Shown here: one piece after another, positions 3,029-63,870 of the stretch
Position numbering within the stretch: position 1 is the stretch's first letter
Layout: each line of letters starts with the position of its first letter
NCBI GenBank assembly: GCA_963921795.1
Contig: OY997659.1
Coordinates: 21,301,659 to 21,365,658 of the forward strand
Reading direction: 5' to 3'
Length of the DNA: 64,000 nt
Source of the DNA: Nannobrachium achirus
Taxonomy: Eukaryota > Chordata > Actinopteri > Myctophiformes > Myctophidae
The notes under the pieces: model-generated
Told to the model about the DNA's origin: nothing
Databases searched by the model: none
The model's input: only the letters and a program-made list of their open reading frames with translations
Position numbers and translations under genes: made by a program

Positions 3029-3381
3029 CAGGCACGTGCACACAGACATCAAAGGGGGCTTGAGCCCCTGCCCTTTTAGCCGTCTGTAAAAAGTGCCCTC
3101 TCCAGACCATGAATGCAGTATTTAATATGGTGAAAGACATGCAAATGCCCTTTCCATGCCATAACCTGAAGGCAGCATCTTATGTTAAAAGAATTTCCCG
3201 CTCTGTGTAGAATTCCATGCCGCGTGTCACATCTCCACTATTCACTTGATTATGCTTAGTTTAGTGTGGTATCAAGCACTGAAAATAGCCGACCTCCAAG
3301 CTTGGATGTCTGCTATTCTCACCAAAAGGCCGTTTTAGATATTACAGCCCCTGCCTCTATAACATTCTCTGCATATCCCTG
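3029..3381. mobile_element. TIR element of the CAGGCACGTGCA family, full length
   Basis: The left end CAGGCACGTGCACACAGACA and the right end GCATATCCCTG are imperfect inverted repeats, with subterminal GGGGCTTGAGCCCCTGCC and CAGCCCCTGCCTC also inverted. Flanks TGTGAGAG and AGAGAGAG agree at 6 of 8 bases, so a hAT-like 8-bp duplication is possible. An internally deleted relative sits at 62863-62998. It carries a palindromic AGCAGATCT-type element at 3281-3320. No coding capacity. Confidence 0.7.
3281..3320. repeat. Palindromic AGCAGATCT-type element (shortened arms)
   Basis: GAAAATAGCCGACCTCCAAG faces CTTGGATGTCTGCTATTCTC: 20-nt arms, no loop, three mismatches. It lies inside the TIR element 3029-3381. 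Confidence 0.75.
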
Positions 3382-3441
3382 AGAGAGAGAGAGAGAGAGA
3401 GAGAGAGAGAGAGAGAGAGAGAGAGAGAGAGAGAGAGAGAG
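3381..3441. repeat. (GA)n microsatellite
   Basis: About 30 GA units directly at the right end of the preceding TIR element. Confidence 0.95.
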
Positions 3442-3596
3442 ATGAAGGGAGCAGGTGTCCCCTTTATCCACCTGCCACTTCACTGAACCTCACCGTGAAA
3501 GACGAGAGAGAGACAGAGAGACAGAGACAGAGAGACAGAGGGAGAGAGAGACGGTATAAAAAAATCACACCCGTGTGAACTGAGCGGTGGTCGTGG

Positions 3597-3659
3597 GGAG
3601 GGGGGGGGGGGGGGGGGGTGCCTGTGTGTGTGTGTGTGTGTGTGTGTGTGTGTGTGTGT
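3597..3659. repeat. G-run followed by (TG)n
   Basis: A run of about 20 G, then TGCC and a TG array. The G-run is a candidate for G-quadruplex formation and for sequencing error. Confidence 0.9.
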
Positions 3660-4387
3660 ATTGCAGTTGATGCTCAGGGCAGGCTAGACTCAACAGCACC
3701 TCTCTGGTCACCCAGGGTACTCAGGCTACACCAGAGGCTACATACAGACAGACCCACACACACCGCCACGTATAGGAGCGTTGTGACCACCGCTCAAAAA
3801 CGAAAGAGAGACAGACTGAGGGTTGCGCTGCAAGAGCCCTCCCCCACTCTCACCCTGTTTCTCTACATCAGTGCTTCCCTAACTTTTTCATGTATTAAAG
3901 GACCCTCAAAATGATATGTATTAGGCTGCAGACCAGGGGGCGTTTTTGTGATGGTTCCATATCTGAAAATGTTCAGGGCCCCAAACTGTACAAGTGTACC
4001 AATTTTCACGCTTGTATGAAAAAGTGAACGATTCACCTAAAATCTGCTTATTATCCCCCGGACTAAATCTGACAGTTCATTCTTTGCGGAGGTGGTCAAA
4101 GTGCAGAGACACAGGGAGGGGAGGTCTGAACCTCAACACACTGCAACAGCAACAACTTGGATACAGAATAGTGTGTGTGCCGTGTATGTATGTGTGAGTG
4201 TGTGATGCAATAGGTAGGACCACTGCAGAGGATGCTCAGACTGTGTGTGAATGGCACAGTGGTGGGCCTATTGTAGTGGGATTACTGTCGTTGGAAGCAG
4301 AACGGTGTGACTGCTGCGCACCTGGTGTACGGTATTAACATCACAACTACAATGCTGGCACCACCAACCAACAGACATTTAAAATGC

Positions 4388-4446
4388 GAGAGAGAGAGAG
4401 AGAGAGAGAGAGAAACAGAGAGAGAGAGGTGGGGGGGGGGGGGGGG
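4388..4446. repeat. (GA)n tract and G-run
   Basis: GA units to about 4412 and from 4418, then about 15 G residues. Confidence 0.9.
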
Positions 4447-4662
4447 ACCAGAGAGAAGATGAGAGACGGAGAGAGATTCTTTATTCTTGTAACCTCATAC
4501 ACACACGGAAAATACACACTCATCCAGAAAAAAACACACAAAAACACTCCTACAGCATCGACCAGAACCTCCAGTATTATGACAATAGAGAGCTTTCCAC
4601 GCAGGGCACACAGTCAAAACCCTCAGTGCAGTCAAAACCCTCGGTGTTTGCATTTGTTTTAC

Positions 4663-4690
4663 TCAAAAATAGCAGATCTTCTATTTTTGA
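4663..4690. repeat. Collapsed palindromic motif copy
   Basis: TCAAAAATAGCAGATCTT meets CTATTTTTGA: only the outer arms of the palindrome remain, as if the centre was deleted. The flanks read as TTTTACT and ATAGCCATAAGTA. Confidence 0.65.
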
Positions 4691-5321
4691 ATAGCCATAA
4701 GTATATGAAATACGTGGTTAAAATTATGGTGAAGCCATTATTAAAAGGATCCCTGACTAATAAGCCTTATATACCTATACCAAGTGGACCTGTGGGACCC
4801 GCTGGACACACACGCAACAATAAAACACGCTTTCACAAAAAGTGTGAACTGTGAACACTACTGTACACACACAAAAGCACAGAGTGCACATAAAAAAAAC
4901 AACAACACAGGTCTCTCTCTCTCTCCAATGACCAAACCACATACATACCGAGCTTTGTGCCCTCCGGCAAAAAAAGAAAAAAATATATAAAAAAAAGAAC
5001 AAAAGAAAAAAAAATCATCAAGTTGAACTGACGCGCCCAGACAAACCTATTTACCTTTTTTTCGCCTCTCAGTTTCTAAATAACCCTATCTGCTCTAATG
5101 CACCGCGTTGCTCCACAAAGTATAATGTGCTGGCCATGCTATTTCAATAAGCAATTTACAGTAAATCTGTTTCCACGTATAAAAAAGGACACTTTGATTC
5201 AGCGGTAATGACTTTGCCGGGGGAGAGAGAGAGAGAGAGAGTTAAGGGTCTAAATTACGACATTGCTTTTTACTGTGCTTGTAGGTGTATGTGCACAGGC
5301 AGGCGCGTGGGCGCACGCATG

Positions 5322-5360
5322 CACGCACGCACGCACGCACGCACGCACGCACGCACGCAC
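5322..5360. repeat. (ACGC)n tetranucleotide repeat
   Basis: About nine ACGC/GCAC units, a CpG-containing variant of the AC arrays. Confidence 0.92.
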
Positions 5361-61573: not shown

Positions 61574-61723
61574 ACACACACACACACACACACACACACA
61601 CACACACACACACACACACACACACACACACACACACACACACACACACACACACACACACACACACACACACACACACACACACACACACACACACACA
61701 CACACACACACACACACACACAC
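61574..61723. repeat. (CA)75 microsatellite
   Basis: Uninterrupted CA array; a small CA tract at 61463-61482 precedes it. Confidence 0.98.
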
Positions 61724-62135
61724 AGTCCTAAGCCAAAACCTATACCAGGTCAAAATGTCAGACTTCCAATACAGAACATACCGGCAGCAACTGACCAAAT
61801 GCGGACACAAGACGTGATAAAAGACGGGTACTTTTAAAGGTTCCAATGACTTTGAAATGAGTATGAGTGAATTGAAACGGTCAGTTTTCCTTGCTAGCAA
61901 AACCCACTCCTTGAATGCACCACAACAGAGGATTGCTGCTTAACCCATTCACGCAGTCCGTAATAGGAAGGCACTTTGGGGATTAAGGGGTTAATTGTTT
62001 AAAGGTTGTCTCCTGACCCTCGCAGACAGATTACGGGGGCTCAGGTCTGGCGGAGAGAACAATCACTTTCACCCTGTCAATCTGAACCGCTACAATCACT
62101 TTCCTACATGTGTAGCTTTAAACCGCTCCTCTGAG

Positions 62136-62222
62136 TGTGTGTGTGTGTGTGTGTGTGTGTGTGTGTGTGTGTGTGTGTGTGTGTGTGTGTGTGTGTGTGT
62201 GTGTGTGTGTGTGTGTGTGTGT
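62136..62222. repeat. (TG)n microsatellite
   Basis: About 43 TG units. Confidence 0.97.
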
Positions 62223-62862
62223 GCGCGTGCACAGCTAGGTCAAAGTGTTTCTAGCCAAGGACAAACACTATATTTCAATCCAACTCTTTCCCAGGTGTTT
62301 CGCCCAGGCGGATGGAAGTAAGCTCATTGACTTTGCTGTTTATTTATTTGACAATGATTGTACAGAGATATGATGCATCCTGAGAATGTGAAACTTCAAT
62401 GAACTGGTTCGCTCAACTCGTTGTAGAATTTGACGTATTTCTGGGTTTCTTGGGTGCGGAATTCGGGATAACAGTAGAAGAGAAGCAACCCGCACTCACG
62501 TTTTCAATCATAGGAGTCTTTTTTAACTCATTCCCCGCCTCCCCCGATAGTCCCGAGAAATTTTAAATGTCGTTCCCCGCCAGGCCCGATAGTCCCGAGA
62601 ATTTGCTTTTATATAATGTAATGTTTAATTAGACTCTTAATTAGCCCGTGACAAAGTTTGGGGTTTCTCACTTAAAGGGAACCAAAGATATCACTCATCA
62701 AAGTAAGTGTGTTTGAAAACAAGAGTGTAATAATGTATAAATCTCAATAAAAATGAATAAAACTCTCAATAAACCACAGTGAATGCATTTAGAGTGGCAG
62801 CCTGCAGCCCGCAGAGTGAAATCAGCGACACACTGGGCACACGCATGTAGAGGGATGTGGGG
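62223..62862. other. No gene recognised
   Basis: A tandem pair TTCCCCGCC / CCCGATAGTCCCGAGAA (62530-62600) after a TTAACTCATTCCCCGCC start suggests a TTAA-type element fragment. Confidence 0.35.
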
Positions 62863-62998
62863 CAGGGATGTGCAGAGAATATTTAGAGAGGCAGGGGCTG
62901 ACATTTCTAAAGGGGCCTTTTGGTGGACAATTCTATTGAATGCAGCCCTCAGGGGCAGGGGCTCAAGCCCCTTTGATGTCTATGTGTGTACATGCCTG
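62863..62998. mobile_element. TIR element of the CAGGCACGTGCA family, internally deleted
   Basis: CAGGGATGTGCAGAGAATAT at the left and TGTACATGCCTG at the right; inner GAGGCAGGGGCTGACA and GCAGGGGCTCAAGCCCCTTT match the two ends of 3029-3381. Confidence 0.75.
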
Positions 62999-63282
62999 GT
63001 GCAAGGGCTCGCAGAAGCGAAACGGAGCAGCTGGATCTGAGACCATGCACAAATCAAACAAAATCCAGTAAAATGTTCACTTGGAAAGCCATAACCTGCC
63101 ACATGGGCCAACAGAACACACACCTTCATAACCCCCAAAGTCTCCACGACAAAATATTATGTCCCAGGCCCAGTCAGACAACTAGATCAGAGCAGGAGCG
63201 TCACAACTCACAAGGGAAAAGTGGGACTGAGTCTGAGTTACTAGGGCCCAAGGTGGAAGGGGCTTCATTATTTTATACTTTT

Positions 63283-63366
63283 GCTATTGAAAAATAGCAG
63301 ATCTACAAGCTTGTAGCGCGACACTCGGTGCCATGCTGTGAGCTTGTATATATCTATTTTTGAAAT
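63283..63366. repeat. Palindromic motif element
   Basis: TATTGAAAAATAGCAGATCT left, centre GCGACACTCGGTGCCATGCT, right GTGAGCTTGTATATATCTAT and TTTTGAAAT. Confidence 0.88.
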
Positions 63367-63702
63367 CACCCAAGAAAATTCATGGGGGGCCCGCAGTGAA
63401 TCCTTGTACCCAGGGCCCATCATTTGGTCCGACACCCAGTTGGAACAGATCCTCAGCCCACTACAAACACACATATATAAAGCCTGGTGAGGCGAGGTTA
63501 CAAACAACACAATCACCTACTGGACAAGATGCAGCGCCGTTGGCCGGTCCAGTCGAGCACCAACCGATCTTCAAGCCCTGCTACGGGAGTGGAGAGGAGA
63601 AAATATCCCCCCTCCCCCGGCGGACTCCTCAAGTCAGGCAACCATTGAAGAAAAGCAACGCGTCGCGTCCATATAACTTCCATCGGTATGTAACAAAACT
63701 GC

Positions 63703-63870
63703 TGAAAATAGCAGATATGCAAGCACACAACGCCTTGCATCCAAGCGTGACCATGGAGGCTGATGAGGAGTATTATATTCCAGTTCTCACAAGAAGGTTG
63801 CGTCCAAACTACCAGCGGTGTAACAAAAGAAAAGTAGTGAAAATAGCAGATCTACAACACGTCGCGACCG
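63703..63870. repeat. Two single-arm motif copies in direct orientation
   Basis: CTGAAAATAGCAGATATGCA (63702) and GTGAAAATAGCAGATCTACA (63838), each preceded by GTAACAAAA. They fall in one open plus-strand frame, read KIADMQAHNA and KIADLQHVA, ending near a donor-like GTCA|GTAAGT at 63917. Confidence 0.75.

Follow-up and report, generated by a model that had tools for sequence, protein, structure and literature searches.

A palindrome present in transposon families with different ends in the genome of Nannobrachium achirus

INTRODUCTION

The interior of a miniature inverted-repeat transposable element (MITE) is generally assumed to derive from a single parent transposon. Several described systems combine such elements, or mobile DNA more generally, with short palindromes. 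MADE1, a palindromic MITE of primates derived from Hsmar1, is the source of hsa-mir-548, and the internal palindromes of Angel and the internal inverted repeats of Tol2 represent fold-back DNA inside fish DNA transposons. Bacterial REP and REPIN sequences are short palindromes that occur in very many copies, both singly and in pairs, and have a transposase, RAYT. In this study we describe a palindrome of about 61 bp that recurs in a stretch of 64,000 nucleotides from the fish Nannobrachium achirus (assembly GCA_963921795.1, contig OY997659.1, positions 21,301,659 to 21,365,658; hereafter ‘the window’), and that lies mostly inside DNA transposons.

The palindrome resembles MADE1 in its length of up to about 80 bp, its almost wholly palindromic sequence, its high copy number, its strong hairpin and the presence of some TA flanks. 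However, constant ends and a TA duplication are absent from most flank pairs, and the MITEs that host the palindrome form many families belonging to different classes, with 585,695 arm matches in the genome at up to 2 mismatches. The likeness to Angel and Tol2 is the general one of fold-back DNA within DNA transposons. The original prediction, which was made from the window alone, compared the motif with REP and REPIN sequences. This comparison holds for the formal layout, since the paired arrangement has a counterpart in one host family (family A, below), but the genome is eukaryotic, the copies are mostly inside transposons, there is no evidence of mobility of their own and no RAYT-like enzyme is known here, although no search for one was made.

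RESULTS

Abundance of the palindrome

One arm of the palindrome, used as a 20-mer query, matches the window at 22 places with up to 3 mismatches, compared with a mean of 0.01 in 100 shuffled sequences (largest value 1). At limits of 3, 4, 5 and 6 mismatches the counts are 22, 30, 35 and 47, whereas those for the reversed motif are 0, 0, 0 and 4. The original prediction held that the motif recurs more than 30 times, and the observation was confirmed: for 29 of the 33 coordinates it listed, an arm with at most 6 mismatches lies in the interval from 6 bases upstream to 60 bases downstream of the coordinate, leaving four (4663, 37677, 44074 and 59155) with a partial arm at best. Additional weak arms, each with 5 mismatches, are present near 5426, 18653 and 58726. 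The genome-wide search that was proposed at the same time, conducted here at up to 2 mismatches, yielded 293,019 forward and 292,676 reverse matches in 1,658,514,493 bases, or one per approximately 2.8 kb of 1.66 Gb, compared with 1 and 0 for the reversed control. Palindromes with two exact 16-nt arms number 19,839 across the genome. Twenty regularly placed 10-kb regions on 20 contigs hold 89 matches at up to 2 mismatches and none of the reversed control. Given controls of 0.01 (window shuffles), 1 (genome) and 0 (20 regions), random expectation does not explain the count, and we can dismiss with near certainty the notion that the palindrome is a product of chance, a simple repeat or an assembly artefact, for which no supporting point was found.

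The sequence examined in detail comprises approximately 0.36 Mb of the genome (the window and a set of loci with designations such as L001), and the window and the 20 regions together amount to 264 kb. In an unbiased scan of these 264 kb, the palindrome core is the most frequent non-simple 13-mer (64 places). When 200 frequent 13-mers were sorted into 32 groups, the core had the most diverse context of the 30 groups listed, with 29 flank classes on one side and 36 on the other. More than six classes on each side were otherwise reached only by groups from other parts of the palindrome, by the hAT end CAGTGGTTCTCAA (25 and 11) and by a family of tandem-like repeats (10 and 7). Rfam models applied to the window at gathering thresholds gave no matches, so a described RNA family was not encountered, and no match to the palindrome was found in viral contigs and phages. 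A literature search by sequence and by related themes, with most subscription papers outside its scope, revealed no description of the palindrome; sequence matches in the text of papers were confined to one 13- or 14-mer in each of two papers, in unrelated organisms.

Structure of the palindromic unit

The unit is a perfect or near-perfect palindrome of about 61 bp that extends to about 80 bp when host-specific outer arms are included. Complete palindromes in the window and in loci L001-L050 are most commonly 61 bp long (46 of 94). The core GATCTACAAGCTCACA is present in both arms and is the most constant part of the unit. The AAAATAGC outside the core is mostly retained, and further out the arms become host-specific, often remaining complementary for a few more bases. 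Among the 46 exact 61-bp palindromes, the AAAAT/ATTTT flank is mostly retained and arm identity exceeds chance to about 9 bases past AGC. The bounding by ATAG and CTAT noted in the original prediction is therefore real, and takes the form of a mostly present AAAATAG...CTATTTT boundary. Five copies folded as single-stranded DNA gave z values of -7.2 to -17.3; the complete palindrome at 52579..52639 (arms 52579-52598 and 52620-52639; outer arms TAGTGGAAATAG...CTATTTCCACTA), for example, has a DNA fold of -44.7 kcal/mol (z -14.7).

The two arms change together. In an alignment of 28 palindromes chosen by hand from the 46 of 61 bp, 92.2% of the cells are paired and 18 of 35 base pairs are altered on both sides, compared with 9.7 in shuffles and 5-10 in slid controls. 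The arms also occur in other layouts. Tandem repeats of one arm with 22-26 bp spacing are found at L003:612-737, in L010, at L035:2110-2155 and at L048:3647-3690, and an arm array at G000:C1:3708151-3708575 has a spacing of 45 bp or multiples thereof. By eye, L022:1400-1690 forms a large inverted repeat with one palindrome on either side of its centre.

Hosts with three kinds of ends

Flank clustering and local consensus building defined host families A, B/E, C, D, F, G, PM, K, I, N and M. The window and the 20 regions together yield 161 arms with at most 4 mismatches and 110 bases of flank each, of which 133 fall in these eleven families (A 48, B/E 20, G 15, F 11, D 10, C 9, PM 6, I 5, N 3, K 3 and M 3) and 28 fall in none. 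The palindrome thus sits in at least eleven flank families. Where host ends can be defined they belong to different classes, namely hAT (8-bp duplications), TTAA (piggyBac-like) and TA. This agrees with the earlier claim that the hosts are unrelated and that the motif is not an ordinary part of one family, because terminal repeats and target duplications differ, and the copies do not trace to one consensus.

The features of hAT MITEs (8-bp duplication and CAG/TAG-type inverted ends) were found for families C, G and PM and for copies of the A interior with CAGGGGCGTC ends, and in part for family D. Exact 8-bp duplications flank some copies of C (TGTGTTTC and TCCCTATT), G (CACTACAA, CTCAAAAG, CTCTATAG and CTATACAG) and PM (GTCTTTAG, one copy), and other copies have 7/8 or none; the CAGGGGCGTC-ended A interior has exact duplications CACACATG and CATGCACC. 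Family D shows exact duplications only where the palindrome is broken or gone (L032:4347-4674 and L045:270-574), and family F has hAT-type ends with a duplication of 7/8 at best. Among the ends that we take to be those of hAT MITEs are CAGGGGTCTTCAA/CAGTGGTTCTCAA, presumably Charlie-like, CAGTGGTG...AAGTAC and TAGGGCTGTCACGAT. These hosts differ among themselves in their ends, the palindrome is extra to them, and some hAT-type elements in the examined DNA lack it.

Two independent copies of family A (L031:8708-9292 and L037:1337-1917) carry TTAA at both ends, and with CCC...GGG inverted ends the family appears to be a piggyBac-like MITE, a label that we assume from these two features. The palindrome also occurs without such ends. 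Three copies of family B (in L034, L047 and L038) have TA on both sides, as is expected of a TA-class MITE. Exceptions are L007, with TA on the left only, and L024, L035 and L037, which have one common outer repeat and no TA. In the ten copies worked out, which belong to C, D, F, G and PM, the palindrome lies at 0.35-0.65 of the element length.

Shared interiors and nested carriers

The interior of family A consists of a palindrome near each end with a hAT-Charlie-like stretch in the middle. Some copies of this interior have TTAA ends. Others have CAGGGGCGTCAC...GTGACGCCCCTG ends accompanied by separate 8-bp duplications, as in L026 and its near-copy L027 (CACACATG) and in L047 (CATGCACC). Further copies with the latter ends are present in L037 (9-base match) and, by eye, in L044 (TTGCATCT). 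One interior with both palindromes therefore exists between two end systems, TTAA and hAT.

Families G and F differ in their ends, but by eye the sequence to either side of the palindrome is common to both. In G, the stretch in common with F is bounded by TTAACCACTTGAACC and its inverse, such that a TTAACCACTTGAACC-ended carrier is nested within this hAT family; the inner carrier is bounded by TTAACCAC...GTGGTTAA. At L034:7612-8180, CAGTGGTTCTCAAC-type ends with an 8-bp duplication CTCTAGAC enclose a TA-flanked family B element (7792-8068), so that here, too, the palindrome sits in a nested carrier. At the fourth arm base, families C and F mostly have C on the left and A on the right; G tends the same way, as does PM, for which few copies are available. 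One asymmetric copy of the palindrome may therefore have spread among these four families.

The PM right end is found both with and without the palindrome. At six of 12 loci it is accompanied by the palindrome, and at the remaining six it is joined to a different hAT-like interior, with no palindrome in the approximately 195 bases fetched. The latter loci (L073 and L075-L079, all on C1) form a very similar chimeric family.

Empty sites and unusual copies

The original prediction suggested a mobile hairpin and proposed a search for empty host copies and target duplications. The search did not favour this idea. Left and right flanks formed 63 pairs across seven host families (some of them near-copies such as L018/L019 and L010/L011), and no precisely empty copy was seen among these. 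The gaps between paired flanks span -2 to 112 bp (approximately 73 for a full copy) and spread like internal deletions, and the shortened copies within the seven families look like deletions; the value of -2 belongs to a copy of family C in which one arm remains. No fixed termini of the palindrome were found, the ends differing between hosts, and a constant TA or other target duplication is absent from most of 47 flank pairs. Three candidate empty sites were rejected by eye. L033 (family PM) keeps ATCTGCTA at the break and was read as a deletion, the family PM copy at 41136 in the window has other sequence at that place, and L045 (family D) looks like a deletion.

Three odd-looking copies were followed through their flanks. 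L009 lies in a young repeat family, in that 26 of 40 scored matches (itself included, from 395 candidates) are 100% identical over 153 bp, and all 18 fetched junctions carry the palindrome, 16 of them with both arms. The near flank of L041:7202 has seven diverged relatives, and in five of these an insertion resembling hAT-Charlie is visible by eye at the corresponding position. The third copy, L030, is complete and lies in nearly unique DNA. Apart from itself, its 163-base flank has one match, of 86 bases, at a site 30 kb away, and this site carries the palindrome as well. L030 comes closest to a stand-alone copy.

An autonomous source was considered at L034, where a piggyBac-type transposase frame (L034:3395-4942, plus strand; DDE_Tnp_1_7, E 6.7e-73) is perhaps an exon of a domesticated gene. 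This candidate was rejected because the nearby palindrome lies, by eye, in another MITE-like stretch.

Copies in the window

Two family C copies are present. End and duplication analysis delimits a hAT MITE of the TAGGGCTGTCACGAT... type at 52462..52862, with the duplication TCCCTATT and the complete palindrome described above inside it, and motif matching together with end analysis places a second copy (duplication TGTGTTTC) at 8454..8804 with one remaining arm at 8677-8696. Family F hosts carry a palindrome at 8243..8291 (ends TAGGGATGGGACGAT at about 8008-8425; duplication not found), another at 45841..45896 (host 45720-46141, with the imperfect 7/8 duplication GTCGCCAC/GTCGCCCC) and a plus-strand arm at 58083..58102 (host about 57905-58334). 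The family A element at 49317..49764 has 100-nt inverted repeats (49317-49416 and 49665-49764), each containing a whole palindrome (49345-49405 and 49676-49736). A second one on the plus strand, with approximate limits 37170..37560, has arms at 37210-37229 and 37472-37491 with a hAT-Charlie-like stretch between them. The interior around the palindrome at 63296..63356 is of the A type, with a hAT-like end next to it (CAGGAGCGTCACA at 63193), and a diverged A-type palindrome is found at 43273..43338.

In the interior of a family D copy, an ACATGC variant of the palindrome (29900..29938) is followed by the hAT end GGTTGAGAACCACTG, and a single plus-strand arm at 22045..22064 has a D-like flank. 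Family B, of the TA class, hosts a single plus-strand arm of the ACAAGCACACA variant at 27770..27789, and B/E hosts contain a plus-strand arm at 26382..26401 and a diverged palindrome at 54005..54058. The remaining copies are a short palindrome at 22524..22558 whose host is not firmly assigned, a diverged copy of the GACCTCCAAGC type at 3287..3314 (family N by eye), a single minus-strand arm of family M at 16413..16432 and two diverged plus-strand arms in direct orientation, 135 bp apart, at 63710..63864.

These last two arms lie in an open frame of 203 codons (63342-63953, plus strand) and share one reading frame, in which they read ..KIADMQAHNALHP.. and ..KIADLQHVATEW... The frame has no Pfam match at E<=1 and is possibly an exonised arm pair or a product of chance; it might also be considered as a coding origin of the palindrome. 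The window also contains a Kelch-repeat open frame at 55997-56833 (plus strand; Kelch_KLHDC2_KLHL20_DRC7, E 2e-74) and a 31-bp tandem array at 19963-20547 (18.9 copies, 97% matches). A high-copy tandem-like repeat of CCCTTTAATGCAAACC... units without the palindrome occupies window positions 2097-2339 and 32607-33009 as well as L041:1-817 and L050:7762-8550.

DISCUSSION

We consider it on balance probable that the palindrome is a passenger module of non-autonomous DNA transposons that is amplified by its hosts and is moved by nested insertion and end-swapping recombination. Copy number would come from transposition of the hosts and not of the palindrome itself, since it is carried by complete host elements that have duplications of their own. 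Transfer between families might occur when a TTAA-ended carrier nests in a hAT MITE and its inner ends are then lost, or through end-swapping recombination or template switching, for example during gap repair after excision; nested carriers and the one interior with two end systems point to such movement. Arm-to-arm correction could then keep and extend complementarity. Compensated changes, host-specific outer arms, tandem arms (L003, L010 and L035) and internal deletions all fit strand switching at the palindrome, and its roughly central position fits an origin as a deletion junction or filler, since this is where the internal-deletion junctions of MITEs would lie. The least certain step is that the core might have a cis-acting use for its hosts, which would explain why it is kept while the outer bases vary. 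Of the ideas in the original prediction, a seed for gene conversion comes closest to this evidence, as judged by the interior with two end systems and the compensated arm changes.

Several observations weigh against a passenger module. Template switching was never observed as an event, and an autonomous carrier of the palindrome was not found. Arm-to-arm correction must be incomplete, because half of the aligned palindromes (14 of 28) are unpaired at the fourth arm base, a state common to several families. Exact duplications are absent from many copies, those of F and of most palindrome-bearing D being imperfect or missing; the PM right end has no palindrome within about 195 bases at six of its 12 loci; high-copy repeats without it exist; and the flank families rest on our own clustering. 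The whole palindrome of L030 in nearly unique DNA likewise speaks for the rival explanations.

The main rival, which we regard as unlikely yet worth retaining, is an old and very successful palindromic TA-type MITE of about 80 bp, similar to MADE1, with ends near TAGTGAAAA(T/C)AGC, that inserted everywhere, including into other MITEs, and whose copies were carried along by amplifying hosts. Length and palindromy agree with what is known of MADE1, nested insertion is seen in family G, and L030, in nearly unique DNA, could be such an insertion. In addition, at least some copies in families B, C and K and at locus L043:6810 show TAGTGAAAA(T/C)AGC or TAGTGGAAATAGC on both sides, and a TA that starts 10 bases outside AGC on both sides occurs in about 3.5 of 47 flank pairs compared with 0.5 expected. 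However, in most of these pairs the bases outside AAAATAGC differ and TA is not present on both sides, so that constant terminal bases with a TA duplication were not found; conservation peaks in the core and drops outwards, which is the reverse of a terminal repeat, and none of the 63 pairs is precisely empty. We rate as rather unlikely a selfish palindrome without ends that is copied between hAT, piggyBac-like and TA transposons, and whose hairpin promotes the strand switching that moves it and founds new MITE families. A hairpin moved by a single-strand enzyme, as RAYT moves REP and REPIN sequences, would account for the strong fold predicted in five copies, the very high copy number, the many contexts and the L030 copy, but it is very improbable given the lack of empty sites and of a constant target, and given that 133 of 161 arms have flanks in common with a host family.

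A cis-acting signal under positive selection, in which the double core is a binding site for a transposase or host factor and confers better amplification, or escape from silencing, on elements of any superfamily that gain it, seems improbable to us. It would fit a core that is kept across families of otherwise unrelated sequence, both old and very young (the L009 family among the latter). Arms are also nearer to their family consensus than flanks are (0.961 compared with 0.886 in 10 sets), which we do not take as proof because arms were picked by similarity. However, family G shows little of this difference (arms 0.943 and 0.969, flanks 0.930 and 0.924) and set A_55 shows none (0.943 compared with 0.944), no binding protein is known and many high-copy repeats lack the palindrome. 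With the palindrome masked, the share of bases near a copy is 18% at depth 0, 32% at depth at least 3, 21-23% from at least 8 to at least 12 and 0-2% at depth at least 16; this fall rules out a general amplification signal in all high-copy repeats. Descent of all hosts from one ancestral element, such that they are unrelated only in appearance, could be suspected from the flank that F and G, and partly PM and A, have in common beside the palindrome when compared by eye. Origin within a single family is nevertheless rejected on ends and duplications, and the three kinds of target duplication, the non-alignable ends and the flanks of B, C, D and K, which show no likeness visible by eye (this is not a profile comparison), make a common ancestor highly doubtful.

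If the palindrome were the selfish entity outlined above, then it would be a parasite of transposons. The several hundred thousand natural copies in this genome can be used to study how a palindrome is copied, corrected and deleted, and whether it helps to found new MITE families. Its presence in hAT-, TTAA- and TA-ended families alike points to the exchange of interiors between transposon superfamilies.

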